Of a DNA stretch of 64,000 bases, positions 23,739 through 43,053 are shown piece after piece. Positions within the stretch are counted from its first letter, which is position 1. Each line of letters starts with the position of its first letter. The position numbers were made by a program, and so were the translations under genes. The notes beneath the pieces are model-generated. The model did no database searches, was not told the DNA's origin, and worked only from the letters and a program-made list of their open reading frames with translations. The stretch comes from Bacteroidia bacterium (GTDB lineage Bacteria; Bacteroidota; Bacteroidia; B-17B0; Aurantibacillaceae), in contig JAIOZA010000011.1 of assembly GCA_021740825.1 (NCBI GenBank), positions 1 to 64,000 of the forward strand, in the 5' to 3' direction.

Positions 23739-24602
23739 CTATAAAGGTATAAATCTAAATTCTTTAACAATTAACTCCACTTCATTATTATTAGATGGAG
23801 GAGCGCCATTTAGCAACCACAAATTAATTCGAGCATGTGTATCTCCTCCGGGCGCAGGAATAATTACTGGAGCAGATTGGTTTCCGCCTTCCACTTTAAT
23901 TCTAGGAGGATTTGATTTATCAAATTGCCATGTTGCTAAAGCGGTTGTCCCCGGATAATTCGGTCCTGCATAACTTGCCCAAGTTACCAATGAATCTGTC
24001 CATTTAAACGCATGGGTAGATAGTGTTTTTAATTTACTTACATTCATTATAGGATGCTTTGTGCGTTCGTAAAAAATGGTAGGATATGAAAAAGAAACTG
24101 GTTGAGCAGAATAAGTTAAAGTTAAAGTATCATTTGCACTACCCCACTTAGAAAATTCAACATCAATTTCACTGTTTGCTTGAGAATAAAAGGAAGTATT
24201 GTCCCATGTAAAAAGGCCTACAACCACATTCTTATCAATATTTGCAACATTACTAGCAACAGTAAAAACATAAGTGCCATATCCGTAATAATTATTTGAA
24301 ATCACTTCAGCACAATTCCACTTACCATTTTCATTAGTAATTTTTAAATGTAAATAACCAAGGCTATCTAAAAACACATTATTTGAAGAGTTAGAAAAAT
24401 AATTAGGTCCCGGCCCTAATTTATTATTATTGCCTGTCTTTATGTTCCATGTTATTCCTGAAAAATTAATGGTTGATGTATATGTTGGAGAAATTGGGGT
24501 TGAAACAGGATCTAATGCAGGAGGATCAGATTGCTTGCAAGAAACAAAAATCATTACTAATAGTGCACTTGCTATAAAGTTATTTTTTAAAAATGAAATC
24601 AT
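23739..24602 (-). CDS. Glycoside hydrolase family 16-like lipoprotein
   Basis: This 287-residue lipoprotein has a lipobox ending at Cys22 (MIFVSC), so it is anchored in the outer membrane. The domain fits the GH16 jelly-roll. The catalytic ExDxE motif is at residues 145-149 (SEIDVEFSKWG: nucleophile E145, assisting D147, acid/base E149), with YGYGTYVF upstream as an expected strand. GH16 enzymes include laminarinases and lichenases, which fits the adjoining GH3. It is the last gene of the minus-strand glucan operon and follows GH3 after 57 bp. The protein is shorter and more divergent than secreted laminarinases, so the exact substrate is inference. Confidence 0.78.
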   Translation of the reverse strand: MISFLKNNFIASALLVMIFVSCKQSDPPALDPVSTPISPTYTSTINFSGITWNIKTGNNNKLGPGPNYFSNSSNNVFLDSLGYLHLKITNENGKWNCAEVISNNYYGYGTYVFTVASNVANIDKNVVVGLFTWDNTSFYSQANSEIDVEFSKWGSANDTLTLTYSAQPVSFSYPTIFYERTKHPIMNVSKLKTLSTHAFKWTDSLVTWASYAGPNYPGTTALATWQFDKSNPPRIKVEGGNQSAPVIIPAPGGDTHARINLWLLNGAPPSNNNEVELIVKEFRFIPL

Positions 24603-24659
24603 ATTACACAGTTTTAATATTTTTTATTCAACTTATTTTAAAGTTCAAATGGTATAAAT

Positions 24660-26927
24660 CTAATTATTGATTGTAAATTTTTGTTTTAAGTTAGCAACAG
24701 AAATTTCAAAATCGCCTTCTTCAACAATCGATTGATTTTTTGAATCTATAAATGTTAAATCACTTTTTGTAATCTTGAAAGAAACGATGGTTGAACTTCC
24801 TTCATTTATTAGTACTTTATTAAAAGCCACAAGCTTTTTTACAGAAGGCGTAATACTCGCGTATAAATCACTCATGAATAATTCAACAACCTCTTTACCT
24901 CTTATTTTACTGTTATTTTTAACTGTTACCCGCACTGTTAATGTATCGTTCATTTTCAAAGTATCGTGACTCACTTCTAAATTTGAATATTCAAAAGAGG
25001 AATAGCTTAATCCATAACCAAAAGGAAACTGAGGGTTAAACGCATTTTCGCCGAAATGAATATCTAATTTTTCGGAGTATTTATGATCATAAGGTACTAA
25101 AGAACCGGTATATCTTGGATAGGTAAAAGGTAATTTACCACTAGGATTGATATCACCATACAAAATATCTGTAATTGCCTTTCCACCTTCATCACCGGGC
25201 AGATAAGCCAATAAAATCCCTTGAACTTTGTCAACAATGTCATTAATAATTCTTGGTCTGTTTTCAGCTAAAACAATAATAATTGGTTTTCTGGTTTTAG
25301 CTAATGCTTTAATCAAATTTAATTGAGCCGCTGGCAAAGTTAAATCTTCAATATCTCCGGGTTTTTCTGTGCAAGGATTTTCTCCTAAACACGCAATTAT
25401 ATAATCGCATTTTTGAGCTACTTTAATTGCCTGTTCCACATTTTTTTCTTCAAAAATAGAACTACCTTCCACATAATCAACTCTTGAAGTTCCAATTTTA
25501 TTGGTGATGGCTTTTAAAATTGTGCTTTTATTTTTAGTGTTATAATTTGTATTTACACCCTGCCAAGTATGGGTCCAAGCTCCATTTAAAATGTTTAACG
25601 AATTTGCTGAAGGTCCGCAAACAAGCACTCGTTTATCTTTTGAAAGTGGCAAACAATTATTTTCGTTTTTTAATAGTGTGATTGATTCAGAAGCTGCCTC
25701 ATAACTTAAGTCACTAAATTTTTTTGATCCAAAATCCGGATAATCTTTTATATTAGTAATTGATTTTTCAAACAATCCTAATTCAAATTTTAAAGTTAAA
25801 ATTCTTGCAACAGCTTCGTTTATTCTTTCTTCCGATACTTGTTTTTCTTTTACCAACTGCAATAATAAATCAGAAAACTCGTAATCATTAGGGACCATAC
25901 TCATATCAATACCCGCCATAATAGCAATTTTTACAGCTTCTTTTAACGAAGATGCTACACGATGTATTTTATAAAGTTTAATTATATCTTCCCAATCAGT
26001 AACAGCAACTCCTTTAAAATGTAACTCATCTCTCAATAACGTTGTCAAGATATCATGGTTTGCATGAACAGGCACTCCATTAATTTCACCCGAATTAATC
26101 ATGACTGTTTTTGCACCAGCATCAATAGCCGTTTTAAAGGTTGGTAAAAAATACTCCCTTAATTCTCTTTCTGGAATCCAAGCTGGGGTTCTATCTTTTC
26201 CGCTCAAAGAAAAGCTATAACCTAAAAAATGTTTCATACAAGCAGCTACTTTATTTTGATCAGAAACATCGGTTCCTTGGTATCCTTTTATAGCAGCAGA
26301 AGTCATCGATTTAGCTAAGTAAACATCTTCTCCATAGGTTTCAAAAAACCTTGACCATAAAGGTTGTCTGCCCAAATCTAAAACAGGAGAAAAATTCCAA
26401 GGAATTCCTGAAGCTCTTACTTCATATGCTGTTACTGATGCAATTTTTTCAACCAATCCGGGGTTCCAAGTGGCCGCCTGTGCTAGTTGCTGCGGAAATA
26501 AAGTTCCTCCCTCTGTATAATTAACACCATGAATAGCGTCAATACCATATAAAACTGGGATACCAAGTCTTGTTTTATTTTTAGCAAGATTTTGAATTTG
26601 ATTTATAATATCATGCCAATGTTCTCTGCTATAAGTATGGCTTCCACAATTAAGTATTGAACCAACTTTATAATCGACGATTGCTTTGTTTAATTTTTGA
26701 GAATCTAATTGGTGTGGTTCCTCTAATTTATAAAGTTCTCCTTTTGAAATAACATCAATGTTTAGTTGAGTCATCTGTCCTACTTTTTCCTCTATGGTCA
26801 TTTTAGAAAGTAGTTCATTTACTTTCTTTTCAATTTCTGTTGATTTAGAACTATTTAATTTTTCATTTTGACATGAAAAAAAAACTAGAAAAAAAGCCGG
26901 AAAAATAATTCGTAATAAATGATTCAT
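24660..26927 (-). CDS. Glycoside hydrolase family 3 beta-glucosidase, lipoprotein
   Basis: This 755-residue exo-acting beta-glucosidase has a lipobox ending at Cys19 (VFFSC), suggesting outer-membrane attachment, facing either the periplasm or the outside. Domain order is the GH3 N-terminal TIM barrel (about 35-400), the GH3 C-terminal alpha/beta sandwich (about 410-630) and a fibronectin III-like domain (about 660-750). The catalytic nucleophile is D311 in GVAVTDWEDI; substrate-binding GIDAIHG and KHFLGY motifs are present. It would release glucose from oligosaccharides made by the GH16 enzyme. It lies 10 bp after the CBM9-like gene, within the operon. Confidence 0.93.
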   Translation of the reverse strand: MNHLLRIIFPAFFLVFFSCQNEKLNSSKSTEIEKKVNELLSKMTIEEKVGQMTQLNIDVISKGELYKLEEPHQLDSQKLNKAIVDYKVGSILNCGSHTYSREHWHDIINQIQNLAKNKTRLGIPVLYGIDAIHGVNYTEGGTLFPQQLAQAATWNPGLVEKIASVTAYEVRASGIPWNFSPVLDLGRQPLWSRFFETYGEDVYLAKSMTSAAIKGYQGTDVSDQNKVAACMKHFLGYSFSLSGKDRTPAWIPERELREYFLPTFKTAIDAGAKTVMINSGEINGVPVHANHDILTTLLRDELHFKGVAVTDWEDIIKLYKIHRVASSLKEAVKIAIMAGIDMSMVPNDYEFSDLLLQLVKEKQVSEERINEAVARILTLKFELGLFEKSITNIKDYPDFGSKKFSDLSYEAASESITLLKNENNCLPLSKDKRVLVCGPSANSLNILNGAWTHTWQGVNTNYNTKNKSTILKAITNKIGTSRVDYVEGSSIFEEKNVEQAIKVAQKCDYIIACLGENPCTEKPGDIEDLTLPAAQLNLIKALAKTRKPIIIVLAENRPRIINDIVDKVQGILLAYLPGDEGGKAITDILYGDINPSGKLPFTYPRYTGSLVPYDHKYSEKLDIHFGENAFNPQFPFGYGLSYSSFEYSNLEVSHDTLKMNDTLTVRVTVKNNSKIRGKEVVELFMSDLYASITPSVKKLVAFNKVLINEGSSTIVSFKITKSDLTFIDSKNQSIVEEGDFEISVANLKQKFTINN

Positions 26928-26937
26928 ATAATTTATT

Positions 26938-28461
26938 TTAATTAAGATTAATTAAACCCCATAGCGAAGGATTGATATTGAAACCTTCTTGCTGTGGACT
27001 AGCCCATCTTGTTTGTTTTATTCTTTTTCCGGACGCATCGCCATCATCAATGGCTATTTCAAATCCATATTTTTCTCCCTTTATCATTTTTGCATCTCCT
27101 ATTGCACTAAACGGAATTTTTATTTCAATTTGATAACCATAATCAGTTTTATTAATCATTACTTCGGCGTCAGTTATAATAGATTTCTTTTTCCAATTCC
27201 ACACATAAGGTTTATCTGTTGCTTTAATTCCTATTTGAAAATCACTCCATAAATATCTAGTTCTATTTAAATCTGCGCTGGCATTTGTTCCAAAACTAAT
27301 TTCCAAAGCATCACCATTCCAAATATCACTGTTATTTTGGTTATTAATTAATGGATGTTTATCAAAAATGCTAGCTGCAATAAATAAATTTTTATCATCA
27401 TAATTAATATGTATTTTATGTAAGTCATCTATAAGCAAAGATTTGCTGCCCCACTCTTCATCCGAAATACTTCCATCAATTTTTATATTCGAACTAACTT
27501 TAAAGGCATCAAATTTAGGTTTCAAAATTCCTTCAAATGGTACAATTGTCATTTCATCAATAATAAAATCTCCTTCTGCTTCAAACTGCATAATAAATTG
27601 TTTAATATTAAAAACATCCAAATCAGTTTGAGCAATTGGAAATACATTAAATGGTATAGTTATTTTGGTCCAATTTGCTGTTATTTTTCCTCCGTCAATA
27701 AATGAGGTCGAAAAACCGGTATACGCCTGAACGCCAGAATAATCTTCTAATGCCAAAGCAACCGGAAGTCCTTTTAATGTATCGCCTTTAGTTCTCGCAA
27801 AAAATTGAATCGCTGCCTTGCCAACTAAACCAGAAATATCTTTTCCTTGCCAACCATTCCAACCAATGCCCATTCCAATCCAATTGCAGCCACCAGAAAT
27901 TTTATCCCATTTTATATGCAAACCATTATTGCCTTTGTATTTATTGATATTATCAACAGAAGCATCAATACACTTTTTATTTTCTGTAAACCAAATCTCT
28001 TTAGATAATGCATCTGAAAATAAATTCAATGCATAAAAACCATCGATATTTGCTTCATTCAAAGTATCCTCTGTATCATATAACTGAGATTGTTTAAATA
28101 CTGACTTTTTTTTATCAGAAACAGTAATTTCTTTGATGTCTATTTCTTTTCTTTTTAACTCAATTTGTAATTGATTGTTTTTTTCAAGAGAAATTTGCTC
28201 ATCATAACTTTGATAACCTAAAAAAGAAACTACCAATCTTATGTTTTTATCCGTTGCCTCAATTAAAAAATATCCATCTTTATTTGTAACAACCTTTTTT
28301 TTAGATTGTTTTATTGTGACTATTGCATCGCTAATATTTTTTTTAGTGGAAAAATCTTTAACGATTCCGCTAATAGAATAAACATCTTTAGTCTGGCAAA
28401 ACAATGAAAAGCCAATACTTAAGAAAGAAAAAAGAAAAATTATTTTTAATTTATTAATCAA
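26938..28461 (-). CDS. Surface protein with carboxypeptidase-D-like, galactose-binding-like and CBM9-like domains
   Basis: This 507-residue exported protein has a signal sequence ending SLFCQ. Residues about 28-112 form a carboxypeptidase-regulatory-like beta-sandwich (YSISGIVKDFSTKKNISDAIV). Residues about 150-335 look like a galactose-binding/CBM11-type jelly-roll (GMGIGWNGWQGKDISGL...DGGKITANWTKITIPF...FIIDEMTIVPFEG). Residues about 345-505 resemble a CBM9-like domain (IKIDGSISDEEWG...GFEIAIDDGDASGKR). There is no enzymatic domain, so it is likely a glycan-capture protein. Its ATG overlaps the stop of the lipoprotein gene at 28458 by 4 nt, indicating translational coupling. Confidence 0.72.
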   Translation of the reverse strand: MINKLKIIFLFSFLSIGFSLFCQTKDVYSISGIVKDFSTKKNISDAIVTIKQSKKKVVTNKDGYFLIEATDKNIRLVVSFLGYQSYDEQISLEKNNQLQIELKRKEIDIKEITVSDKKKSVFKQSQLYDTEDTLNEANIDGFYALNLFSDALSKEIWFTENKKCIDASVDNINKYKGNNGLHIKWDKISGGCNWIGMGIGWNGWQGKDISGLVGKAAIQFFARTKGDTLKGLPVALALEDYSGVQAYTGFSTSFIDGGKITANWTKITIPFNVFPIAQTDLDVFNIKQFIMQFEAEGDFIIDEMTIVPFEGILKPKFDAFKVSSNIKIDGSISDEEWGSKSLLIDDLHKIHINYDDKNLFIAASIFDKHPLINNQNNSDIWNGDALEISFGTNASADLNRTRYLWSDFQIGIKATDKPYVWNWKKKSIITDAEVMINKTDYGYQIEIKIPFSAIGDAKMIKGEKYGFEIAIDDGDASGKRIKQTRWASPQQEGFNINPSLWGLINLN

Positions 28462-29462
28462 GGTTCTAAAGCTTTATTATCTGTAAAAATTAAATAATCC
28501 ATTTTTGTTTTTGAAAAACCCGACGAAGGATCCGCTAAATGTAAAGCAGATATCTTTAACAATCTTTCAGGATTTTGCTGCTGATTTCCTTTAGGTGCAG
28601 ATGGAGCACCATTAACTAGGGTAGCTAAATCAGAATATTTAACAGTAATTAATCGCCAACCAGCCCAGGTAATTTTCAATTCATAATCATACTCATCTTC
28701 AGTGGAACTTTCAAAAGTCCCATTATTATTATCATCTTCTCTCAATTGAAATAACAAAATTGCGTTAGTAATTCCTGGCTCACCCCAAACTAAAACATTA
28801 AAATAAACATTATTTGGATTTGTATTTAATGGGAAATGCGCTAAGCCATTGGCAGTTGAAGGAAATTCAATTAAACTAACCAACCAATCCCAATTAACCG
28901 TTCCTGCCATATTATAAAAATTATTTCCCTGCGGTACTGGTGGCACACTTCTAACTTGACAATCCATACTGGCACCAGATTGAGCAAATTTAACCCAAGA
29001 ATTATTGAAACCAGATTCAAAATCTGTAACAATATAACCTGCATTAACTTTCGGTTTAATAACTTTAAGAGCAAGAGAGACAGAATCCCTTTCGGTTGGA
29101 AAAGTTAATAATACAGAACAATTTTCTTTTTTAAACATTGGCAAAATGGACGTACTTCCATTCCACAAAGCGTTAGTAACATCTATTGTTTTAGATTTTC
29201 CAGTAATTATTTTTTCTGCTCCGGAAGATAATCCTTTGATGGTTATTTTCCAATCAACTAATTTGTTCATCTTAGCCGTAAAATAATTTGTTTGACTTGC
29301 AGAAAAGTCTACACTATCTAAATTACTTTTAAATGGTTCTAAAAACCTGAAAGAACCATACAAATCATTTAAATCGGGACCATCATAAGGAGATTTTTCA
29401 TGCTTGCAACCAAACATTAAAATAGCAAATAAAAACAAATGGAGTTTAACTATATTTTTCAT
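28458..29462 (-). CDS. Lipoprotein of the glucan locus, probable surface glycan-binding protein
   Basis: This 334-residue lipoprotein has a lipobox ending in LMFGC (Cys19), followed by KHEKSPYDGPDLNDLYG. Residues about 50-135 look like one beta-sandwich domain. The rest (YIVTDFESGFNNSWVKFAQSG...NVLVWGEPGITNAILLFQLREDDNNNG...YDYELKITWAGWRLITVKYSDL) resembles a jelly-roll carbohydrate-binding fold with exposed Trp residues. No catalytic motif is visible. It sits between the outer-membrane barrels and the CBM9-like protein, which is where SusE/F-type binders occur in canonical glycan loci, so a binding role is inferred from position and fold. Confidence 0.68.
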   Translation of the reverse strand: MKNIVKLHLFLFAILMFGCKHEKSPYDGPDLNDLYGSFRFLEPFKSNLDSVDFSASQTNYFTAKMNKLVDWKITIKGLSSGAEKIITGKSKTIDVTNALWNGSTSILPMFKKENCSVLLTFPTERDSVSLALKVIKPKVNAGYIVTDFESGFNNSWVKFAQSGASMDCQVRSVPPVPQGNNFYNMAGTVNWDWLVSLIEFPSTANGLAHFPLNTNPNNVYFNVLVWGEPGITNAILLFQLREDDNNNGTFESSTEDEYDYELKITWAGWRLITVKYSDLATLVNGAPSAPKGNQQQNPERLLKISALHLADPSSGFSKTKMDYLIFTDNKALEP

Positions 29463-29483: not shown

Positions 29484-31211
29484 TTAGAATTTCATATTAT
29501 AAATAATTAATAACTGATTTATGGAATAGGAAGATACGCTATTTAATTTATTTGTAAAATCATAATTTTGATAAAGTGCTGTTAAATAAATTTTATCAGA
29601 AAAACGATACCTCAAACCGCCTCCTAAAATCATTTCAGAAGTATTAATTTTATATTCGTTAAAATCCGTTACTTCAGAGTACTTATTTCTATCAGCAATC
29701 AATTCATTTCCATTTGCTTCATAAGAAATTATACCACCGAGTAAATCAAAGTTTTTATAAAACTCAACTTCAAATCCTGCGTTCCAATTAGTTGATGTTA
29801 AATTTATTTTTTCAAAATCTAAATCGCTATTTCGTTTTGTTGATTGCGTTGAAAAACCTGTTGTTATTTTGATATTTTTTTTGAGTGCCAACAACTTATG
29901 TAAATTAAATTCAGCATGAGATTTGATAAGATTAAATGACTTCAATTTTTCTGTACCTTGACCTTTTATTTCATTTAATAAATAAGTTTCTGCTCCCAAC
30001 TTTACTATTTCTTTTTTATCTACAAAATCAAGTTTTGCATAAACACCTTGTCTGTTAAAAGTTGCAATACCAAATGGCATCACATTATTATAGGCCGGAT
30101 TAAATGCCATTAAATTATTACTAATGGATTTGTTATATAAAGTTTCATCACGCATCATATCAAATATTCCTATAGATCGAAGATCTTGTTGATTTGTATA
30201 CCGGTTATAAACTGAAGGAGTTGCATTGTAATTCATTCGTTTTGATTGAGCTCCAGCACTTCTAAATTCAGGTCCAACATCCAAATAACCAAGTGTTAAT
30301 TTAGTATGCATTGGTTTGTAAGATAAAGAAATTCCCAAATCTAAAAATGAGTCATCTAATTTTGGCGCCAACGAATCTAATGTATATTTAGATTCCGAAA
30401 ATCCCGCTTCTCCAAAAAATCGAAAATCAATTTTTTCTTTTCCCAATTGTAATTCATAATTTAAGGATGCTACATTATTTCTAAATGCATTTTTATTTGA
30501 CGATGTACCAATTAAATCAAATAAACTAACATAATTAATTCCAACAAATAAATTCTTACTTTGTTGAATGCCAATGTTTCCTCCTCCATAAAATCTATCT
30601 GGTACATTAGTAAAATCGGTTACATTAATTCGATTAATAAATCCGTTAAATTTTATCTCTTTAATAATTTTAGCAAATTCAAGCGCAAAATCAGCTGCTG
30701 CACCTTGTTGTCTCCAAGTGTTTTTTTGATAAAATGTTTCGTAATTCACAATTTCTCTCTGCAATTTAAAAACATCTGGCTGCTGAATAAGTTGATCTTC
30801 ATCATGATTATAAAAAGTAAATGGTGTTAGTTTATAATTAATATCGCCTAATTGATATCTTACCACATTTCCAATAATTCCTTTAACGTATAACTGACGC
30901 ACATCAAACGTTACCCCTGCTCCATAAAATCCACCGAAAGCATTTCTTATCCTCATCATGCCTAATATTTCGGTGTTTTTGTTTGGGAAAATATTTACAC
31001 CTAAATCAATTAAAGCGTAGCCACCCATTTTCTTTTTAGCGGTAACTGTATCTTCTATTGGATCTTTAACAACCAACTCATTACTATTCATGATAGAACG
31101 AGCTACACCTACAAACTGAACTTTTTTTGCAGTTTGTGATTTTGCCTGATTATAAATACATACCAACAATAATATGTAGTATAGAGTCTTTATTTTATAA
31201 TTTACTTTCAT
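29484..31211 (-). CDS. Outer-membrane beta-barrel protein of the glucan locus (second)
   Basis: This 575-residue protein has a signal peptide (YYILLLVCIYNQAKSQ). The whole mature chain is a large beta-barrel with aromatic-flanked strands, ending IYNMKF. There is no plug, TonB box or SusC feature. It shares the motif LTPFTFY (residues about 127-133) and a following Y/F-Q...W..QG pattern with the next upstream gene (31222-33162), so the two barrels are probably paralogues. Only 10 bp separates them. Passive uptake of gluco-oligosaccharides across the outer membrane is a reasonable inference from context; no homologue of known function was recognised. Confidence 0.68.
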   Translation of the reverse strand: MKVNYKIKTLYYILLLVCIYNQAKSQTAKKVQFVGVARSIMNSNELVVKDPIEDTVTAKKKMGGYALIDLGVNIFPNKNTEILGMMRIRNAFGGFYGAGVTFDVRQLYVKGIIGNVVRYQLGDINYKLTPFTFYNHDEDQLIQQPDVFKLQREIVNYETFYQKNTWRQQGAAADFALEFAKIIKEIKFNGFINRINVTDFTNVPDRFYGGGNIGIQQSKNLFVGINYVSLFDLIGTSSNKNAFRNNVASLNYELQLGKEKIDFRFFGEAGFSESKYTLDSLAPKLDDSFLDLGISLSYKPMHTKLTLGYLDVGPEFRSAGAQSKRMNYNATPSVYNRYTNQQDLRSIGIFDMMRDETLYNKSISNNLMAFNPAYNNVMPFGIATFNRQGVYAKLDFVDKKEIVKLGAETYLLNEIKGQGTEKLKSFNLIKSHAEFNLHKLLALKKNIKITTGFSTQSTKRNSDLDFEKINLTSTNWNAGFEVEFYKNFDLLGGIISYEANGNELIADRNKYSEVTDFNEYKINTSEMILGGGLRYRFSDKIYLTALYQNYDFTNKLNSVSSYSINQLLIIYNMKF

Positions 31212-31221: not shown

Positions 31222-33162
31222 TTAAAAAAATAGTTTTAATTCTACGGTAGTTTCTGTTCCAATATATTTATCCTTTTTGAAGCTGTAATCATGATAATCT
31301 ATCCACCTTTGACGAACATACAAACCGGCGTTTTTTCCAAGTGACAAATCAAAACCCGTTGCAAAACTTAATCCTTCCTGATTCCTGGGTCTTCTTGTTT
31401 CGGTATCCAAATCTGTATTGTAATTTGCAATAATCCTTTCCCAACCAAAATAATTAGCTATCACCAAATTTGAATTTACTTTAAAGTAAAGTTCAAATTG
31501 ATGATAATAGTTTCTAATGTAGGCTTGTTCAGTAAATACTGTAATAGCAGACATTTTTTTCTGAATAGAATTATAAGATCCCAAATAATTTAAATAAACA
31601 TCATGATTTAAAATATTGAACGCGTATTTAGCATTTATCTCAATAGTGTTAAAATTTTTAAGCGTCAACGACGTATCGTTTACATTTATTGTTTCATAAA
31701 CTCCTCTGTATACTTTTGTTAAATTACCGTAAGGACCTAAACCTGTTGTTGGATAATTACTCCATCTCCAAAATCTAGACAGCGCTAAATTGTTTGTAGG
31801 ATGATTATAAGTTATTTGTGTAGATATATTTGATATTTCCTGAGAAATACCATTTCCAATACTTAATTTTAATTTTCCAATATTTAAATCGGCATTAATG
31901 TTTAAACCTTGACGATTATTAGTAAGCTGACCAATTTGCACCATTGAACTTGCAAATGGTGCTAATACAGCATTACCCGATGCTGTTGCAATAGTATTTT
32001 GTTGAGTTTCCACCACCGAAGAATTCCAAAAAATAGAATTATTATTGATGACATTAGAATTAATTCGGAAGTAGTTAATCTCAATAGGAATTAACGCATA
32101 TTTTTTAGGTAGTAATAATTTAAAATTCAATGCTTCACCAAAATCTCCTATATTAGAAGAATCAGAAAAACCAGCAGAATAAAGAGGACTAAAATACTTG
32201 CCAAGGCCTACCTCTCCAGATAATACAACATCTTTCCAATTTAAATTATATTCAACAGTGTGCATATTAAAACCAACAGTTTGTTTAGCAAGACTATCCG
32301 TATATGTTTTACTATTAAACGTATTGACACTTACAAAACTTTTACCAAATGTTTTTTTTAATTTACCACCTATTGAGTTATCAGGGATTGAAGTCATTCC
32401 GCCATTAACAACACTTTTACCGTACATCACCACCGCAGAAAAATCATAAGGTAAATCATCCGCTTCAACAATTAATCCCTGAAAAGCTTGTTTTCCCCAC
32501 CTTGAGTCTTGAGTAATTCCTCCGTATTGGTAAAAAGATTTATAGCGGTCAACCGGTGATTTAGATCCTGGATCCCAAGGATTTCTCTCAAAAACAGAAT
32601 ATCGGTTATATCCCAAGTTAGTGTAAAATGTAAATGGCGTTAGAGAATACCAGTGAATACCACCAGCCATTATATTAAAATTACCAATATCTGTTGCAAA
32701 CGAACCATATAAATTCACTCCTAAATTTAAGCCTTTCACATATTCGCTTGGAGCTAAACCAGTCATTTTATTCCATAAATACAAATCAGTTCCAAAGCTT
32801 GTATTTGCGGTAGGCTTTCCCGAAATATTTAACATCAGTTCAGGAATCTGACTATCATCTCCAATAAATAGTTTTTTAGGTGTAGAGGCAAAAGATGTTG
32901 TATCGGAAGGTGAATTTGAATATGCAGTTTTCATCTGCTGATAATTGCCTATAAACCTGTAATAACCACTAATAGTAAGATTTTTTAAAGTAGATTCAAC
33001 TTGTTTTGGGAATGAACCGTAACTTGTATTATTTAAACTAGTAAGAAATTTAATTTTCTCTTTTAAACCTAAAGAGTCTTGCGAATTGGCTTTCGTGAAA
33101 AATAAACATAGCAAAACAACACTAAAAAATTTTAATAGAATATGACTTGCTATTTTTTTCAT
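31222..33162 (-). CDS. Outer-membrane beta-barrel protein of the glucan locus (first)
   Basis: This 646-residue protein has a signal peptide (LLKFFSVVLLCLFFTKANSQ) and a mature part made of amphipathic strands ending TTVELKLFF. The shared WYSLTPFTFYTNLGYNRYSVFERNPW segment relates it to the barrel at 29484-31211. There is no TonB plug domain, so it is not SusC. It is the first gene after an internal promoter: a -7 box (33168-33175) ends 5 nt before its ATG, and a regulator-type inverted repeat lies at 33179-33199. This suggests that barrel and hydrolase genes downstream are directly controlled by the NUDIX-type regulator. Confidence 0.7.
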   Translation of the reverse strand: MKKIASHILLKFFSVVLLCLFFTKANSQDSLGLKEKIKFLTSLNNTSYGSFPKQVESTLKNLTISGYYRFIGNYQQMKTAYSNSPSDTTSFASTPKKLFIGDDSQIPELMLNISGKPTANTSFGTDLYLWNKMTGLAPSEYVKGLNLGVNLYGSFATDIGNFNIMAGGIHWYSLTPFTFYTNLGYNRYSVFERNPWDPGSKSPVDRYKSFYQYGGITQDSRWGKQAFQGLIVEADDLPYDFSAVVMYGKSVVNGGMTSIPDNSIGGKLKKTFGKSFVSVNTFNSKTYTDSLAKQTVGFNMHTVEYNLNWKDVVLSGEVGLGKYFSPLYSAGFSDSSNIGDFGEALNFKLLLPKKYALIPIEINYFRINSNVINNNSIFWNSSVVETQQNTIATASGNAVLAPFASSMVQIGQLTNNRQGLNINADLNIGKLKLSIGNGISQEISNISTQITYNHPTNNLALSRFWRWSNYPTTGLGPYGNLTKVYRGVYETINVNDTSLTLKNFNTIEINAKYAFNILNHDVYLNYLGSYNSIQKKMSAITVFTEQAYIRNYYHQFELYFKVNSNLVIANYFGWERIIANYNTDLDTETRRPRNQEGLSFATGFDLSLGKNAGLYVRQRWIDYHDYSFKKDKYIGTETTVELKLFF

Positions 33163-35247: not shown

Positions 35248-35251
35248 ATAA

Positions 35252-35259
35252 CAAATATA
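35252..35259 (-). promoter_or_regulatory. -7 promoter box of the NUDIX-type regulator
   Basis: The minus strand reads TATATTTG, only 4 nt before the ATG at 35247, implying a leaderless message. Operator site 1 is centred 39.5 bp upstream. Confidence 0.55.
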
Positions 35260-35284
35260 TTAAAAGATTATTAATTTAATTAGA

Positions 35285-35305
35285 TTAGTGTATAAAATAC
35301 AATAA
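35285..35305. promoter_or_regulatory. Putative operator of the NUDIX-type regulator (site 1)
   Basis: The plus strand reads TTAGTGT-ATAAAAT-ACAATAA, a 7-7-7 inverted repeat with one mismatch between arms. It is in the 100-bp divergent region between the regulator and the kinase gene, centred 21.5 bp upstream of the kinase -7 box. Confidence 0.68.
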
Positions 35306-35317
35306 TTAATTGTATTT
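35295..35317. repeat. Perfect 9-bp inverted repeat overlapping operator site 1
   Basis: The arms AAATACAAT and ATTGTATTT are exact complements around AATTA. The structure overlaps the right half of operator site 1 and the kinase -7 box (35313-35320). It may be a second, offset binding site for the same or another regulator. Confidence 0.6.
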
Positions 35318-35320
35318 TTG
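35313..35320 (+). promoter_or_regulatory. -7 promoter box of the kinase-glycolysis operon
   Basis: TATTTTTG fits TAnnTTTG and lies 27 nt before the ATG at 35348. The -33 region coincides with operator site 1. Confidence 0.5.
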
Positions 35321-35347
35321 TATAAATTTAATTATTTTATTTAAATT

Positions 35348-36208
35348 ATGGTCATAATTGCTGACAGTGGATCTACAAAAGCAGATTGGAAATTGATTAG
35401 TAACAACAAGGTTGTTAAAACCATTCGTACAATGGGTTTTAATCCTTTTTTTCATACAGAAAAAATTATCGTTGACGAGTTAACAAAGTGCTTTCAAAAT
35501 GAACTTGATGTAAACGATGTTTCTAAAGTACATTTTTACGGAGCAGGCTGTTCAAGTGAGGATAGAAATCAAATAATACAAACCGCTTTAACCTCATTTT
35601 TTCCAAACTCAAAAAACGAAGTTTATCATGATATTTTAGCTTCTGCAAGAGCTACCTGTGGTAATAATCCAGGAATAGCTTGTATTTTAGGGACTGGTTC
35701 AAATTCGTGCGCGTATGACGGCATAGATATTACTGATAATCTTCCTTCTTTAGGATTTATGTTAGGTGACGAAGGAAGTGGAAGTAGTTTTGGTAAATTA
35801 CTTATTAGAAAAATATTTTATAGAGAATTGTCGGAAGATTTATTACAATTATTCAATTCAAAATATAAATTATCTAAAGAGGATATTTTAGATTCATTGT
35901 ATAACAAACCACATGTGAATGTTTTTTTATCAAAGTTTTCTGAGTTTTATTCAGAAAACCAGAATCATCCTCAAATCAAAAAAATGGTCAAGACAGTTTT
36001 TACTGAATTTTTTGAATGTCATATTGTAAAATATAAAAATCACGATACTTACCCTATCCATTTTGTAGGCTCTATAGGATTTATTTTTAGGCCAATATTA
36101 GAAGATGTAGCAAAAGATTTTAAAGTGAATTTAGGCGTGACAATAAAAAATCCAATTGACTCATTGGTCAATTTTCATATAAATACGTTTTCGGAAAATT
36201 TAATTTAA
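35348..36208 (+). CDS. BadF/BadG-type ATPase, probable sugar kinase
   Basis: This 286-residue cytoplasmic protein of the ASKHA fold is likely a hexose or amino-sugar kinase. Visible motifs are phosphate-1 IIADSGSTKADW (residues 2-13), an adenosine/phosphate-2 region CILGTGSNSCAYDG, and MLGDEGSGSSFGK. These resemble N-acetylglucosamine kinase of the BadF/BadG/BcrA family. Its position directly ahead of pfkA, gapN and the isomerase suggests that it phosphorylates glucose released by the glucan enzymes. Substrate choice between glucose, GlcNAc and glucosamine cannot be decided from the sequence. pfkA starts 72 bp downstream, with operator site 2 in between. Confidence 0.8.
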   Translation: MVIIADSGSTKADWKLISNNKVVKTIRTMGFNPFFHTEKIIVDELTKCFQNELDVNDVSKVHFYGAGCSSEDRNQIIQTALTSFFPNSKNEVYHDILASARATCGNNPGIACILGTGSNSCAYDGIDITDNLPSLGFMLGDEGSGSSFGKLLIRKIFYRELSEDLLQLFNSKYKLSKEDILDSLYNKPHVNVFLSKFSEFYSENQNHPQIKKMVKTVFTEFFECHIVKYKNHDTYPIHFVGSIGFIFRPILEDVAKDFKVNLGVTIKNPIDSLVNFHINTFSENLI

Positions 36209-36280: not shown

Positions 36281-37267
36281 ATGAAAGATGAAATTAAAAA
36301 AATAGCGTTATTAACTTCTGGAGGAGATGCTCCAGGCATGAATACCTGTATAAGAGCAGTTGTTAGAGCAGGAATCTATTACAATTTAGAAGTATATGGT
36401 ATTAAAAGGGGTTATCAAGGTTTAATTGAAAATGATATTCAATTAATGTCATCTCGTTCTGTCAGTAATATTATTCAAAGAGGAGGAACTATATTAAAAT
36501 CAGCAAGAAGTAAAGACTTTATGCTACAAAGTGGTATGGATGCTGCATATCAAAATTTAAAAAATAAAGATATTGATGCTCTCATAGTAATAGGCGGCGA
36601 TGGTACATTTACTGGTGCCAATATTTTTTCAAACAAATTCGACATTCCAATCATAGGAATTCCTGGAACTATTGATAACGATTTAAACGGCACTGATGCA
36701 ACAATAGGATTTGATACTGCTACAAATACTGCATTAGACGCTATCGATAAAATTAGAGATACCGCCAATTCTCATAATAGATTATTCTTTATAGAAGTTA
36801 TGGGAAGAGATTCGGGTTATATAGCAATTAAAACAGGAATTAGTGGTGGTGCAGAAGCTATTTTAATTCCTGAAAAGAAAACAACCATCAACGAATTAAT
36901 TGCAATTTTAGATAGAGGTTCTAAACAAAAAAAATCATCAAGTTTAGTAGTTATAGCTGAGGGAGGAGAAAGTGGCGGTGTAATTGACTTAGCAAAGAAA
37001 GTAGAAGAGAGATTCAGCTATTACGATACAAGAGTTACAATTTTGGGGCATCTTCAAAGAGGAGGCACGCCAACTTGCACTGATAGAGTATTAGCTAGTT
37101 TACTGGGAGTAAGAGCCGTTGAAGGTTTAAAAGAAGGTAAATCGAATATGATGGTGGGCACCATTAATAAAAAAGTTGTATTTACTCCTTTCGAAAAAGC
37201 ACTCAAAAAGAAAAAAACAATAGACCGCGAGTTACTTAGAATATCAAAAATTTTATCAAACAATTAA
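36281..37267 (+). CDS. pfkA: ATP-dependent 6-phosphofructokinase
   Basis: This 328-residue cytoplasmic enzyme phosphorylates fructose-6-phosphate to fructose-1,6-bisphosphate. The motifs are complete: LTSGGDAPGMN (14-21 core), GGDGTFTGA (105 onward, Gly rather than Asp after GGD, as in ATP-using enzymes), catalytic PGTIDNDLNGTD (D132), and VMGRDSGYIA. The length is typical of bacterial PfkA. The ATG at 36281 was chosen because the longer frame from TTG 36221 would run through operator site 2. gapN follows after 22 bp. This is probably a second, locus-dedicated glycolytic gene. Confidence 0.95.
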   Translation: MKDEIKKIALLTSGGDAPGMNTCIRAVVRAGIYYNLEVYGIKRGYQGLIENDIQLMSSRSVSNIIQRGGTILKSARSKDFMLQSGMDAAYQNLKNKDIDALIVIGGDGTFTGANIFSNKFDIPIIGIPGTIDNDLNGTDATIGFDTATNTALDAIDKIRDTANSHNRLFFIEVMGRDSGYIAIKTGISGGAEAILIPEKKTTINELIAILDRGSKQKKSSSLVVIAEGGESGGVIDLAKKVEERFSYYDTRVTILGHLQRGGTPTCTDRVLASLLGVRAVEGLKEGKSNMMVGTINKKVVFTPFEKALKKKKTIDRELLRISKILSNN

Positions 37268-37289: not shown

Positions 37290-38936
37290 ATGGATAAATT
37301 AAATGAAAATCAGAATACAGGAATAGACTTAAGTAAGTTATTTCCAGAGGAAAGCGAAATTCCAAATGAATATAATTTTACAGAAACAATTGAACAAAAA
37401 GAATACTTGATTAACGGAAAAATAGAATCGTGGGATACGTCTTTCCAAGATGTTTATTCACCGGTTTGCATAAAATCAAATGAAGGACTAAATCCAAAAC
37501 GTTTAGGAAAATATCCTTTGCTTACCGAAAAAGAATCGCTAGAAGCTTTAGATGCGGCTGTAAAATGTTATGACCACGGAAGAGGTGTTTGGCCAACAAT
37601 GACAGTAAAAGACAGAATTACCTGCATGGAACTATTTGTTTCGAGAATAAAGGTAAAAAGATCTGAAGTTGTAAAAATATTAATGTGGGAGATTGGAAAA
37701 AATTTAGAAGATTCGGAAAAAGAATTTGATAGAACTATTGAATACATCAATGATACAATTGAAGAAGTAAAAAAATTAGACAGAGAATCATCTCGCTTTC
37801 AAATTCATCAAGGAATAATAGCTCAAATTAGAAGAGGTCCATTAGGTGTTGTGCTTTGTATGGGACCATTTAATTATCCTTTAAATGAAACGTTTTGTAC
37901 GCTAATACCAGCGCTAATAATGGGAAATACGGTCATTATCAAACCACCAAAAAAGGGTGTTTTATTATACCGCCCATTACTAGCGGCATTTAGAGATTGC
38001 TTTCCTAATGGAGTTGTAAATGTAGTTTACGGAGAAGGCGCCATTACATCAGGAACACTTATGAAATCAGGGAAAATTGATGTGCTTGCATTTATCGGAT
38101 CTAGTGCGGTAGCTAACGAATTAAAAAAATTACATCCCTACCCGCACAGACTTCGTTCCGTATTAGGATTAGAAAGTAAAAACCCTGCCATTATATTGCC
38201 TGATGCAGATTTAGAACTAACAGTAAAGGAATGTCTACTAGGTTCATTATCATTTAACGGACAAAGATGCACGGCGCTAAAAATGATTTTTGTTCATTCG
38301 AAAATAAAGGATGAATTTATAAAATTATTTTCAGCAGCAGTAGATCAAATTAAATATGGAATGCCTTGGGAAAAAGGAATTTTAAATACTCCACTTCCTG
38401 ATATTTTGAAAGTGCAATACATGGAAGAATTAGTGAACGATGCCGTATCAAAAGGAGCAAAAGTAATTAATAAAAATGGCGCTCATTTGCAATCCACATT
38501 TTTCTTTCCAACGATTGTTTTTCCAGTAAACGATAGTATGCGCATTTATCATGAGGAACAATTTGGACCTGTTATTCCCATTTTAGAATATGATAATATT
38601 GAAACACCTATAAATTATATGGTAAATTCTCCATACGGTCAGCAAGCAAGTATTTTTGGAACAAATTCTCAAACAATAGCAAAATTAATAGATCCACTGA
38701 TTAACCAAGTATGCAGAATCAATATTAACAGTCAATGTCAGAGAAGTCCGGATAACTATCCATTTTGTGGAAGAAAAAATTCGGCAGAAGGAACCTTATC
38801 TGTGTTTGACGCATTGAGAGTATTCTCGATTAGAACTTTGGTAGCCGCTAAAAAAAATGAACTCAACGAGAAAATTCTTTCAAGTATTATTCACGATAGA
38901 CAATCAAATTTTTTAAGAACAGATTATATATTTTAA
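37290..38936 (+). CDS. NADP-dependent non-phosphorylating glyceraldehyde-3-phosphate dehydrogenase (GapN-type)
   Basis: This 548-residue aldehyde dehydrogenase oxidises an aldehyde with NAD(P). The catalytic set is present: N195 in MGPFNYPLNE, E295 in LGLESKNPA and nucleophile C327 in SFNGQRCTALK, a string typical of GapN. GapN converts glyceraldehyde-3-phosphate straight to 3-phosphoglycerate with NADPH formation, bypassing ATP-yielding GAPDH. The N-terminus has an extra ~45 residues compared with streptococcal GapN. It lies between pfkA and the isomerase in one operon, supporting a glycolytic substrate. Another aldehyde substrate remains possible. Confidence 0.85.
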   Translation: MDKLNENQNTGIDLSKLFPEESEIPNEYNFTETIEQKEYLINGKIESWDTSFQDVYSPVCIKSNEGLNPKRLGKYPLLTEKESLEALDAAVKCYDHGRGVWPTMTVKDRITCMELFVSRIKVKRSEVVKILMWEIGKNLEDSEKEFDRTIEYINDTIEEVKKLDRESSRFQIHQGIIAQIRRGPLGVVLCMGPFNYPLNETFCTLIPALIMGNTVIIKPPKKGVLLYRPLLAAFRDCFPNGVVNVVYGEGAITSGTLMKSGKIDVLAFIGSSAVANELKKLHPYPHRLRSVLGLESKNPAIILPDADLELTVKECLLGSLSFNGQRCTALKMIFVHSKIKDEFIKLFSAAVDQIKYGMPWEKGILNTPLPDILKVQYMEELVNDAVSKGAKVINKNGAHLQSTFFFPTIVFPVNDSMRIYHEEQFGPVIPILEYDNIETPINYMVNSPYGQQASIFGTNSQTIAKLIDPLINQVCRININSQCQRSPDNYPFCGRKNSAEGTLSVFDALRVFSIRTLVAAKKNELNEKILSSIIHDRQSNFLRTDYIF

Positions 38937-38967: not shown

Positions 38968-39957
38968 ATGAAATCATTAATCCAAAATTTTTCAAATCAA
39001 TTATCAGAAGCCATAATTATAGGAGAGTCTGCTAAGCTTACCCAATCAGTTCACAAAATATCAAATATTTTAATTTGTGGAATGGGTGGATCAGGAATTA
39101 GCGGAAATATTTTAAACGAGTTAGTAAATACCGAAGTAAATGTTCCAATAAATATTTGCAAAGGATATTTTATACCAAATTACGTCTGCGAAAATACATT
39201 AGTAATCATTTCATCCTACTCAGGAAATACAGAAGAAACTATAAACTGTATTAATATGGTTATTCAAAAAAATGCTAAGGTAGTTTGTATTACATCAGGA
39301 GGTATCATTGAAAGAATAGCAATTGAAAATAATTTTGATTACATTCTTATACCAGGAAATATGCCACCTAGATCATGTTTAGGATATTCTCTGATTCAAA
39401 TGTTTTACATTTTATATTTTCATAAAATTATTGATGATAGCTTTAAAAATGATTTTAAAAATTCTATAAATTTATTAGAACATGAAAACTCAAGTATTAA
39501 AGCCGATGCTGAAGAACTCGCTAAATTACTATTTAAAAAAACACCAATTATTTACACAACTACAAATAACGAAGCTTTAGCAATAAGATTTAGACAACAA
39601 TTAAATGAAAATTCAAAAGTACTTTGTTGGCATAATACTATACCAGAAATGAATCATAATGAACTTGTAGGATGGACTTCTAAAAACGAATCTATAGCAG
39701 TATTAATTCTATTAGATGAAACAGATTATAAAAGAAATAAAATTAGGGCTGGTTTAAATTTAGAAGTTATAAAAAAATACGCTTCAAGCGTAAACGTCAT
39801 TTATTCTAAAGGAGAAACAGCCATAGAAAAAGCAATTTACTTTATTACTTTATGTGATTGGATTTCAATATTTTTAGCAGAAATGCGCGAAATTGACCCT
39901 GTTGAAGTTGATGTTATTAATGAACTTAAAAATTCCTTAGCTAACCTAATTGACTAA
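38968..39957 (+). CDS. Bifunctional phosphoglucose/phosphomannose isomerase
   Basis: This 329-residue SIS-domain protein interconverts glucose-6-phosphate or mannose-6-phosphate with fructose-6-phosphate. Family landmarks are ILICGMGGSGISGNI (residues about 32-46), ISSYSGNTEETI, and the signature IPEMNHNELVGW with the catalytic His/Glu region. The length is typical of the archaeal/bacterial PGI/PMI family rather than the larger classical Pgi. It is the last gene of the plus-strand operon (31 bp after gapN) and converges with the sugar permease. It supplies the step between the kinase and PfkA, making the local pathway continuous. Confidence 0.9.
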   Translation: MKSLIQNFSNQLSEAIIIGESAKLTQSVHKISNILICGMGGSGISGNILNELVNTEVNVPINICKGYFIPNYVCENTLVIISSYSGNTEETINCINMVIQKNAKVVCITSGGIIERIAIENNFDYILIPGNMPPRSCLGYSLIQMFYILYFHKIIDDSFKNDFKNSINLLEHENSSIKADAEELAKLLFKKTPIIYTTTNNEALAIRFRQQLNENSKVLCWHNTIPEMNHNELVGWTSKNESIAVLILLDETDYKRNKIRAGLNLEVIKKYASSVNVIYSKGETAIEKAIYFITLCDWISIFLAEMREIDPVEVDVINELKNSLANLID

Positions 39958-39978: not shown

Positions 39979-41424
39979 CTAATGTGCCATTGTGGAATTA
40001 TCTGCAATGGCAATATTTTGTGATTTTAAAATAACTTTAACTTTTAATGCATAAAAAGCAAGGTATGCAAAACAACACACTCCAACCAAGTAACTCCATT
40101 GAATTCCAAGGAAATTATTTGCCGCTAAGTATCCTTGCAGCAAACTAATAAAGCCACCTCCCATAATCATCATTATTAAAAAACTAGAACCTTGGTTTGT
40201 AAATTTTCCTAATCCAGAAATTGCCAAAGTAAATATGCATGGCCATAAAGTGCTACAAAATAAACCTACACTAATAAAAGCAAAAACACTTACCATTCCG
40301 GAAGAAATCATACCAATAAACAACGCTATAATTCCAAAAACTGAATATATTAATAATTGAGTTGCAGGGTTTCCTTTACTCATTATATCACCAACTACTA
40401 AAACTAATATTATTACTGAATAAATATAAAAAGGAGTAACATCATTATTTGCAAAAATATTAATTAATAGAAAAACTAAAAAAGCTATGTATGGCATAAA
40501 AAACTGTAATATTTTTTTTGTTCCCATTTTCAAGTTAAATGCTCCAACAGAAGCAGTCCACCTTCCAATCATTAAACTAGCCCAAAACAAAGACACAAAT
40601 GGCGCTATTTTATTAGTTTCAATATTTAAATGTTGCTTCATAAATTCAGGTAAATTACTAGCAGTGGATACTTCAACACCCACGTATAAAAAAATAGCAA
40701 TCATTCCTAAAACTAATTGTGGGTAATCTAACGCACTTTTTTTAGTTATGTCTTTTTGGGTTCCTTTATCTATTTCATCCGTAACTGTTTCAATTTTATT
40801 AGGAATAGAAGAAAATTTAAAAATAACCGCCACAACTAAAAACGCAAAACCTAAAATCATATAAGGTATCTTTATGCTTTCGATATTTGATCCATTTTCA
40901 TTTTTACTTAATGAACCAAAAATGGCAAAACTAATTAGAATAGGTCCGATAGTAGTTCCTAAATTATTTATTCCTCCTGCTAAACTTAATCTCTGAGAAC
41001 CTTTTGAAGGGGCTCCCATGACAATAGCCAATGGATTTGCAGCTGTTTGTTGCAATGAAAAACCTAATCCAACAATAAATAATCCTGAAATCATTAATGG
41101 AAAAGATGCCATCTCTGCAGCCGGATAAAATAATAAAGTACCAAGTGCAGAAATTAACAACCCTACTACAATTCCATTTTTGTAGCCAACTTTATTTAAT
41201 ATATCTCCACCAGAAAACTTTGAAATTAAAAAATAAATAATTGATCCAACGGTATAAGCAACATAAAATGCAAAAGAAATTAATTGAGATTGCCATTGGT
41301 CAAGATGTAAATTTTCCTTAAAAACAGGTATTAAAATATCATTGCTTGCTGCTACAAATCCCCAAAAGAAAAAAACCGAGATTAATACTATTAACGAAGA
41401 ATTACTTTTTTTTACTGTTGTCAT
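39979..41424 (-). CDS. Sugar MFS transporter (FucP/glucose-galactose type)
   Basis: This 481-residue inner-membrane symporter of the FHS family of the major facilitator superfamily probably imports glucose, galactose or a related monosaccharide with H+ or Na+. Landmarks are LIVLISVFFFWGFVAASNDILIPVFK at the start, VGYKNGIVVGLLISALG, and QQTAANPLAIVMGAPSKGSQRLSLAGGINNLGTTIGP, which is typical of FucP-like proteins. Twelve membrane helices fit the pattern. Its upstream region carries operator site 3 (41458-41478), so it is likely in the same regulon. It would bring in glucose released in the periplasm by GH3. Confidence 0.9.
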   Translation of the reverse strand: MTTVKKSNSSLIVLISVFFFWGFVAASNDILIPVFKENLHLDQWQSQLISFAFYVAYTVGSIIYFLISKFSGGDILNKVGYKNGIVVGLLISALGTLLFYPAAEMASFPLMISGLFIVGLGFSLQQTAANPLAIVMGAPSKGSQRLSLAGGINNLGTTIGPILISFAIFGSLSKNENGSNIESIKIPYMILGFAFLVVAVIFKFSSIPNKIETVTDEIDKGTQKDITKKSALDYPQLVLGMIAIFLYVGVEVSTASNLPEFMKQHLNIETNKIAPFVSLFWASLMIGRWTASVGAFNLKMGTKKILQFFMPYIAFLVFLLINIFANNDVTPFYIYSVIILVLVVGDIMSKGNPATQLLIYSVFGIIALFIGMISSGMVSVFAFISVGLFCSTLWPCIFTLAISGLGKFTNQGSSFLIMMIMGGGFISLLQGYLAANNFLGIQWSYLVGVCCFAYLAFYALKVKVILKSQNIAIADNSTMAH

Positions 41425-41658: not shown

Positions 41659-41663
41659 TTTAA

Positions 41664-41671
41664 TAAATTTG
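41664..41671 (+). promoter_or_regulatory. -7 promoter box of the three-repeat secreted protein
   Basis: TAAATTTG fits TAnnTTTG and lies 41 nt before the ATG at 41713. Confidence 0.5.
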
Positions 41672-41712
41672 TTTTACAAACTAAATTATTACTAAACTTA
41701 AAAAAATCTAAC

Positions 41713-43053
41713 ATGGACAAAAAAAATTTACTTACAAAAGGAGTAATTATGAGTATCATAGTGTTCTCACTAATTACTCTTAATTTAAATGCTCAAAACA
41801 ATCAAGCTAAAGAAAATAACCTAATTGATTTAGTTATTAACGTTGATGTATGTACTACAACTGCGGACACAGTTAGAATTACTGGTCCATTTTGGAATTG
41901 GAATCCAAATGGTGGACCTCTTGGAACAAATAATGGTAACGGTTCATGGTCTTTTACATTATCTCCTGCTCCAAGTGCAGATATGGAATATTTAGTTATA
42001 GTTGATGGCGTTCAAGAAAACTTAATTGCTGATATGCAAAACGGTGGGACATGCGCCCCAGTTACAGATTATGCTAATTACGCTAATAGAAAATGGGTTG
42101 TGGGTTCAGGAGATATAAATATCATTTATGATCGCTGCGTTCCATGTTCTAATTTGGTTATTAATGTTGATGTATGTACTACAACAGCTGACACAGTAAG
42201 AATAACAGGACCATTTTGGGGATGGAATCCAAATGGTGGGCCACTAGGAACAAATAACGGTAACGGAACATGGTCTTTTACCTTATCCCCTGCTCCAACT
42301 GCTGATATGGAATATTTAGTTATAGTTGATGGAGTTCAAGAAAACTTAATTTCCGATATGCAAAACGGAGGAACCTGTGCACCAGTAACAGATTATTTTA
42401 GTTATGCAAACAGAAAGTGGGTTGTAGGTTCAGGGGATGTATTTATTTCTTATGATCGTTGTGTTCCATGTTCTTATCCAAACATAGTTATTACAACTTG
42501 TGCGCCAGGTGCTACATCTGTAAAATTAACCGGACCTAATTGGCAGTGGAATCCTAATTTCGGGCCTTCAGCTGTAAACAATGGTAATGGAACTTGGACT
42601 TTTTCAATTTCTCCTGCGCCAAATGATACATTAGAATACAAATTAATTAAGGATGGAATTTTTGAAGATTTAATTCCAGCGATGCTTAGTGGCGGAACTT
42701 GTGCGCCAGTTACTGATTATGCAAATTACGCAAATCGCAGATGGTTAATTGCAGATGGTGCTATTTCAAACACCTTCGGTAGTTGCGCTACTTGCAGTGT
42801 TACGGGTATTAATGAAAATATAAATGGCTCTCTTCAAATTTTCCCTAATCCAACCAATTCTAATGTAAAAATAAGATATTCTAATAAATCATTTAAAACT
42901 AAGTTATTAAATATTTTAGGAGAGGTAATAATTGAAAGTAGTTCGGATAATTTTGAGGACGAGTTAAATTTAAGCAACTTTGCAAGCGGTATTTATAACT
43001 TAACGATTACTTCAAATAATGAAACAAAATCAATCAAATTAATTAAAGAGTAA
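41713..43053 (+). CDS. T9SS-exported protein with three tandem ~107-residue repeats
   Basis: This 446-residue secreted protein has a signal peptide (IMSIIVFSLITLNLNAQ). Three repeats lie at about 40-145, 148-253 and 256-361, each with ITGPFWxWNPNGGPLGTNNG, SPAP..DMEYL, DGVQENL and GGTCAPVTDY landmarks and four conserved Cys. The first two are nearly identical and the third is more divergent. A T9SS type A sorting domain ends the protein (IFPNPTNSNVKI, 376 onward). I recall similar Trp-rich modules beside GH16 laminarinases in marine Bacteroidota, so glycan binding is plausible. Operator site 4 places the gene in the glucan regulon. Confidence 0.82.
   Translation: MDKKNLLTKGVIMSIIVFSLITLNLNAQNNQAKENNLIDLVINVDVCTTTADTVRITGPFWNWNPNGGPLGTNNGNGSWSFTLSPAPSADMEYLVIVDGVQENLIADMQNGGTCAPVTDYANYANRKWVVGSGDINIIYDRCVPCSNLVINVDVCTTTADTVRITGPFWGWNPNGGPLGTNNGNGTWSFTLSPAPTADMEYLVIVDGVQENLISDMQNGGTCAPVTDYFSYANRKWVVGSGDVFISYDRCVPCSYPNIVITTCAPGATSVKLTGPNWQWNPNFGPSAVNNGNGTWTFSISPAPNDTLEYKLIKDGIFEDLIPAMLSGGTCAPVTDYANYANRRWLIADGAISNTFGSCATCSVTGINENINGSLQIFPNPTNSNVKIRYSNKSFKTKLLNILGEVIIESSSDNFEDELNLSNFASGIYNLTITSNNETKSIKLIKE

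Follow-up and report, generated by a model that had tools for sequence, protein, structure and literature searches.

Gene content and organization of the locus

The locus occupies positions 23739-43053 of the stretch of DNA that we analyzed (64,000 nucleotides, hereafter the window), which lies within contig C20 of a 2.95 Mb Bacteroidota genome comprising 58 contigs and estimated to be 87.6% complete. It consists of two divergent operons flanking an intergenic stretch of about 100 bases (35248-35347; Table 1). The minus-strand operon encodes, in order, a Nudix-type regulator, a GH158 protein, two outer-membrane barrels (646 and 575 amino acids), a surface lipoprotein (334 amino acids), a CBM9 protein (507 amino acids), a GH3 enzyme, and a GH16 enzyme, with intergenic gaps ranging from -4 to 57 bases. 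The plus-strand operon runs from a BadF kinase through PfkA and a GapN-like enzyme to a phosphoglucose/phosphomannose isomerase (PGI/PMI). The gene for an MFS sugar permease is convergent with this second operon and is followed by that for a T9SS-secreted protein with CBM48-like repeats. The eight-gene order of the glucan operon was also found in relatives, at 60-82% identity.

We recovered every component that an earlier note on this DNA had listed, namely the GH16, GH3, and TIM-barrel hydrolases, the barrels, the binding proteins, the permease, the kinase, PGI/PMI, PfkA, and the GapN-like enzyme. The Nudix regulator had been overlooked there. A gene for a DUF6268 protein (22600-23535) lies directly downstream of the glucan operon, and CBM48/CBM20-like T9SS proteins resembling the one in the window were also observed near four other barrel loci (L082, L089, L090, and L093). 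An Rfam search returned nothing except one tRNA, and scans for promoters and terminators gave signals at chance level.

Table 1. Features of the locus, with window coordinates and the evidence for each assignment. The start of the GH158 gene was placed after the stop codon of the regulator.
Feature	Coordinates	Strand	Evidence
GH16-like lipoprotein, putative divergent beta-glucanase (motif EIDVE)	23739-24602	-	Pfam GH16 below cut-off; lichenases are the best PDB matches; lipobox
GH3 beta-glucosidase, predicted lipoprotein	24660-26927	-	Pfam GH3 N, C, and Fn3; BoGH3B (5jp0), 646 bits
CBM9/CBM30-like protein carrying a CarboxypepD_reg domain at its N-terminus, second candidate for surface binding	26938-28461	-	Pfam; CHU_1279 slot, no sequence match to CHU_1279
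Surface glycan-binding-type lipoprotein, CHU_1278 homologue	28458-29462	-	BLASTP 84 bits, 25%; lipobox in 33 of 38 homologues
Outer-membrane barrel 2, CHU_1277 homologue	29484-31211	-	BLASTP 315 bits, 38%; AF2 barrel, pLDDT 74, pTM 0.72
Outer-membrane barrel 1, CHU_1276 homologue	31222-33162	-	BLASTP 204 bits, 27%; AF2 porin-like barrel without plug, pLDDT 72, pTM 0.74
GH158 endo-beta-1,3-glucanase family protein	33207-34547	-	phmmer 307 bits to GH158 9oro, 261 bits to 6pal
NrtR/AraR-like Nudix and winged-helix regulator, heading the operon	34558-35247	-	Pfam NrtR_WHD, AraR_C, NUDIX; relatives 73-82% identical
Putative operator, palindrome ATACAATAATTAATTGTAT in the stretch separating the two operons	35297-35315		Same place in three relatives
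BadF-type sugar kinase, putative glucokinase	35348-36208	+	1zxo 231 bits, 8ow9 220 bits; adjoins Zwf-Pgl-Edd in relatives
PfkA 6-phosphofructokinase, one of two genomic copies	36281-37267	+	TIGR02482 411 bits, above cut-off; other copy on contig C17
GapN-like aldehyde dehydrogenase lacking the general base	37290-38936	+	GapN 3prl 230 bits; R103, Y155, R283, C284, and R437 kept, E250 is Gly
Bifunctional PGI/PMI	38968-39957	+	TIGR02128 273 bits, above cut-off
Inner-membrane MFS sugar permease, GluP/FucP/NagP type	39979-41424	-	TIGR01272 199 bits (cut-off 202.6), NagP 169 bits
T9SS-secreted protein, repeated CBM48/CBM20-like domains, probably binding glycan at the surface	41713-43053	+	Pfam CBM48, Por_Secre_tail

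Enzymes and predicted substrate

The hydrolase that had been described as a TIM barrel is a GH158 family protein, and the GH3 enzyme is close to BoGH3B. The GH16 assignment is weaker: the Pfam score was 16 bits against a cut-off of 22, and the best PDB matches, 1,3-1,4-beta-glucanases, scored about 20 bits. We regard this protein as a genuine but divergent member of the family. Together, GH16, GH158, and GH3 make up the enzyme set of a SusCD-containing beta-1,3-glucan utilization locus of Bacteroides uniformis (1,3GUL; PMC7157763). The window thus contains GH158 and GH3 along with a GH16 that is weakly assigned, and this combination points to beta-1,3-glucan, either laminarin or a mixed-linkage form, as the predicted substrate. 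The window further resembles 1,3GUL in having extra surface binders. However, it lacks SusC, SusD, and the hybrid two-component regulator of that locus, its uptake proteins are barrels resembling CHU_1276 and CHU_1277, and its GH16 is divergent and may not belong to GH16_3.

The barrel pair and the absence of SusC and SusD from the locus

The two barrels had been described as non-TonB barrels, and this description held. A search for Plug domains across the genome gave no match inside either barrel, NCBIfam returned no match for either, and AF2 models of both, at moderate confidence, are large, porin-like, and free of a plug. Foldseek retrieved nothing but barrels of a generic kind, including both porins and TonB receptors, and profile searches started from the barrel sequences identified no useful PDB relative. 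The possibility that the barrels are degenerate SusC proteins was rejected, as they have neither a plug match nor a SusC signature and are instead homologous to CHU_1276 and CHU_1277.

The 87.6%-complete genome yielded no match to either SusD model (PF07980 and PF14322), whereas PF14322, as a positive control, was detected twice in the Cytophaga genome; PF14322 was also without a match in four members of the window's family. The genome contains 17 TonB plug domains. Five of these 17 receptors were scanned for SusC, namely the window's own pair plus the three with the longest frames outside it, and the best score to TIGR04056 was 125 bits, compared to a cut-off of 368. The locus therefore has no SusC/SusD pair of the kind that defines a canonical polysaccharide utilization locus, as the earlier note had claimed, and the search for a pair elsewhere found none within the same limits of genome completeness and of five scanned receptors. 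These searches make a strong case for the absence of SusCD from the locus and a good, though not certain, case for its absence from this incomplete genome. The two TonB-dependent receptors of the window (47442-49922 and 59766-62222) have heme/hemoglobin-type proteins as their best NCBIfam match, far below the cut-off.

The similarity to CHU_1276, CHU_1277, and CHU_1278 extends to gene order, with the lipoprotein occupying the same slot after the barrels and the CBM9 protein standing in the CHU_1279 slot. The reference for this comparison is a locus in genome G471 (L175; 1.487-1.496 Mb), which was reached through the family of a Sporocytophaga MAG and has the layout OMP747-OMP606-SGBP380-375-aa protein-GH9. 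CHU_1279 is likewise a 375-aa protein, in which W89, F92, F180, Y253, F256, and F343 were mutated in published work (PMC12016534), and CHU_1280 is a GH9 enzyme (PMC6247017). All six residues are present in the 375-aa protein of L175. From this layout and the exact agreement of these residues, we identified L175 as chu_1276-chu_1280, and G471 is by the same token presumably Cytophaga hutchinsonii.

Given this homology, the window locus belongs to the SusCD-less “atypical PUL” type that has been described for cellulose, equipped with another set of enzymes. As such it has a precedent, rather than representing a new kind of system. Like chu_1276-chu_1280, it combines two adjacent plug-less outer-membrane barrels, a CHU_1278-like lipoprotein, a second binding-type protein, and a hydrolase downstream, with neither SusC nor SusD. 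Differences concern the two outer positions of the published cluster: the second binder of the window is of CBM9 type and unlike CHU_1279 in sequence, and GH158, GH3, and GH16 replace GH9. The window also differs from chu_1276-chu_1280 in the Nudix-type regulator within the operon and in the linked glycolysis operon. GH9, the type of endoglucanase represented by CHU_1280, was observed only in the cellulose branch of the barrel family, and we treated it as a substrate-specific part that does not define the wider CHU_1276-type family. We found no earlier report of a locus of this type in the family to which the window belongs.

Link to central metabolism

Three members of the same family (G006, G038, and G039) share with the window both the glucan operon, at 60-82% identity, and the divergent kinase, which is followed in these genomes by Zwf-Pgl-Edd and not by PfkA-GapN-PGI. 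Since the kinase adjoins Zwf-Pgl-Edd there, its product is likely glucose-6-phosphate, and the pairing with Zwf similarly points to glucose as its probable substrate; its nearest relatives in the PDB are amino-sugar and MurNAc kinases. The occurrence of Zwf-Pgl-Edd in the relatives, as opposed to PfkA-GapN-PGI here, suggests that the locus takes different, exchangeable catabolic cassettes. The Zwf genes of the three relatives all lie in this locus and are the only copies found in those incomplete genomes, and the 87.6%-complete genome of the window gave no Zwf match.

The earlier note had proposed looking for the rest of glycolysis. A second PfkA is encoded on contig C17 and an ordinary GAPDH on contig C46; a PGI of the PF00342 type had no match in this genome or in four relatives. 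Within the window, the intergenic palindrome has no other exact match, and 0.33 matches would be expected by chance when up to three mismatches are allowed. Its conserved position between the operons suggests that both may be regulated together. The palindrome was not seen upstream of the permease, which therefore need not share this control.

The proposal that the locus is coupled to its own upper glycolysis stood in one respect and was overstated in another. The glycolytic genes do belong with the locus, as judged by the shared divergent promoter region, the palindrome, and the kinase kept in three relatives, but their presence is not a conserved trait, as the relatives have Zwf-Pgl-Edd. Most beta-glucan-type loci of the class have no central-metabolism genes nearby, so the coupling is best described as a lineage trait, real but confined to the window's family.

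The GapN-like enzyme (548 amino acids) has GapN as its best PDB match, is distant from it in sequence, and is about 70 residues longer than the GapN of S. mutans. In GapN, R103, Y155, R283, and R437 bind the phosphate of glyceraldehyde-3-phosphate (G3P), C284 is the catalytic cysteine, and Glu250 is the general base. The window enzyme shares the binding residues and the cysteine with GapN, but the position of Glu250 is Gly in all eight orthologues, that is, in the window and in seven others of the family (motif GL[ED][AS]KN). In these enzymes (window; L037-L043), a Glu or Asp is found two positions after the Gly. Because the general base is replaced throughout, assigning the enzyme as GapN is unsafe. 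The prediction that its use would yield NADPH instead of ATP is correspondingly weakened, as the retained G3P-binding residues are offset by the loss of Glu250 and by the presence of an ordinary GAPDH. The GapN neighborhoods of the seven other family members contain no linked glycolysis or glycan genes, which disqualifies GapN as a marker of the locus.

Two alternative views of the linked operon can be weighed against these data. The glycolytic genes could be ordinary neighbors, either housekeeping genes or recent arrivals, that serve all sugars. None of the 19 further genomes searched within the genus contains the barrel, GapN orthologues elsewhere sit in unrelated neighborhoods, and the general lack of central-metabolism genes beside beta-glucan-type loci of the class is also in line with such co-location. 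We nevertheless consider it unlikely, as the divergent kinase is kept in place in three relatives along with the conserved palindrome, the genes that follow it are always those of glucose-6-phosphate catabolism, and the PfkA and GAPDH encoded elsewhere mean that the locus copies are not the sole ones. The other view accepts the link and takes the GapN-like enzyme to be a true non-phosphorylating GAPDH, so that the locus would provide an NADPH-producing route replacing the NADPH-making Zwf-Pgl-Edd of the relatives. The conserved phosphate-binding residues and catalytic cysteine agree with this, as does the finding of Zwf only in this locus in the relatives and nowhere in the window's genome. 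The latter is, however, only 87.6% complete, and with Gly in place of Glu250 in eight orthologues, an acidic residue two positions later, and an ordinary GAPDH at hand, we hold this second view to be rather doubtful.

Proposed route of glucan use

We consider it likely that the window encodes a CHU_1276-type locus for beta-1,3-glucan (laminarin or mixed-linkage) and that this locus forms, together with the genes for the initial steps of glucose breakdown, a single regulatory unit with divergent transcription. In this scheme, lipid-anchored binders (the CHU_1278-like lipoprotein, the CBM9 protein, and perhaps the T9SS CBM48 protein) would hold the glucan at the cell surface, where GH16 and GH158 would cut it and GH3 would free glucose. 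Glucose or short glucans would pass the outer membrane via the two plug-less barrels, and the GluP/NagP-type permease would move glucose into the cytoplasm. The BadF kinase would then form glucose-6-phosphate, which PGI/PMI and PfkA would feed into glycolysis, and the GapN-like enzyme might act on triose phosphate or on another aldehyde. The Nudix-type regulator, presumably binding the shared intergenic palindrome, would switch both operons together. The cellular locations and transport steps given here are predictions from sequence.

Passive entry of monosaccharides, as the earlier note envisaged, is plausible by analogy with the published cluster. A chu_1276 mutant and a chu_1279 deletion grew poorly at low glucose, and CHU_1276 reportedly takes part in glucose uptake (PMC12016534). 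The AF2 models predict large barrels without a plug, at a confidence too moderate to fix pore size or strand number, and do not discriminate between possible cargoes. It is also conceivable, at somewhat less than even probability, that the barrels take up oligosaccharides, with the CHU_1278-like and CBM9 proteins acting as SusD-like lids and GH3 completing hydrolysis in the periplasm. Wherever the contig permits a view, the barrel pair is accompanied by at least one surface lipoprotein; the barrels reach 747 amino acids, larger than 16-strand porins; and Foldseek query TM-scores against 22-strand TonB-receptor barrels (0.40-0.45) exceeded those against porins. In addition, cells mutated in chu_1277 or chu_1276 show a defect on cellulose (PMC12016534). 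On the other side, the barrels have no plug domain and hence no known energy coupling, and the glucose phenotype of chu_1276 favors the entry of monosaccharides.

Distribution of the barrel pair in Bacteroidia

A profile search detected barrel 1 in 48 of 395 genomes of the class Bacteroidia. We inspected the neighborhoods of about 75 loci, and in all 74 that could be tested the two barrels stood side by side on one strand in an invariant order, separated by a median gap of 12 bases. The pair is normally followed by one or two genes of the surface-binder type. Chance clustering was rejected as an explanation of the locus, as its order is conserved across families. The enzyme sets found with the pair correspond to beta-1,3-glucan, cellulose (GH9), alpha-glucan (GH97), and amino sugars (NagB), where these substrate labels are taken from neighboring genes and denote association rather than tested specificity. 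In a tree of 76 barrel 1 proteins, rooted at the midpoint for drawing only, the window falls within a supported clade of 46, mostly accompanied by beta-glucan enzymes. The other clade, of 30, contains the cellulose loci with GH9, the Sporocytophaga loci, the GH97 loci (L121 and L123), and loci with NagB-like genes.

In the literature that we searched, SusCD-less families were described only from C. hutchinsonii, though this does not prove that no others have been published. The class-wide breadth of the barrel pair and the range of enzymes associated with it appear to be new, as we did not find them described in that literature. We lean slightly toward the view that the CHU_1276/CHU_1277 pair, together with its surface lipoproteins, constitutes a second general glycan-uptake platform of Bacteroidia beside SusCD. 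Its enzyme sets would be exchangeable, directed at beta-1,3-glucan, cellulose, alpha-glucan, or amino sugars. Some lineages would additionally have connected it to a private route into central metabolism that can likewise be swapped: glycolysis including a GapN-like enzyme in the window, Zwf-Pgl-Edd in the relatives, and GapA-PfkA beside NagB-type loci in another family. SusCD is the hallmark used to find polysaccharide utilization loci, and searches based on it would miss a widespread platform of this kind, which would in turn change estimates of which Bacteroidota consume laminarin, cellulose, starch, or chitin. Such a platform also raises the question of how outer-membrane passage of glycans proceeds when TonB supplies no energy. 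With one conserved operon flanked by either of two catabolic cassettes, these genomes provide a natural test of the connection between a locus and central metabolism.

Several of the other loci are of interest in themselves. In L121 and L123 (genomes G239 and G177), the CHU_1276-type barrel pair adjoins GH97, the family of SusB, which suggests an alpha-glucan version without SusCD. In another family (L122, L124-L127, L129, and L130), the barrel operon lies beside GapA-PfkA. NagB-like genes are also present there where the contig extends far enough, one of which carries a fused PIG-L deacetylase domain (checked with Pfam in L125 and L127). The neighboring genes mark these as a putative version for amino sugars or chitin that includes glycolysis genes. 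In the Sporocytophaga loci L138, L140, and L178, the barrel operon ends in GH3 and is followed by an aldehyde dehydrogenase.
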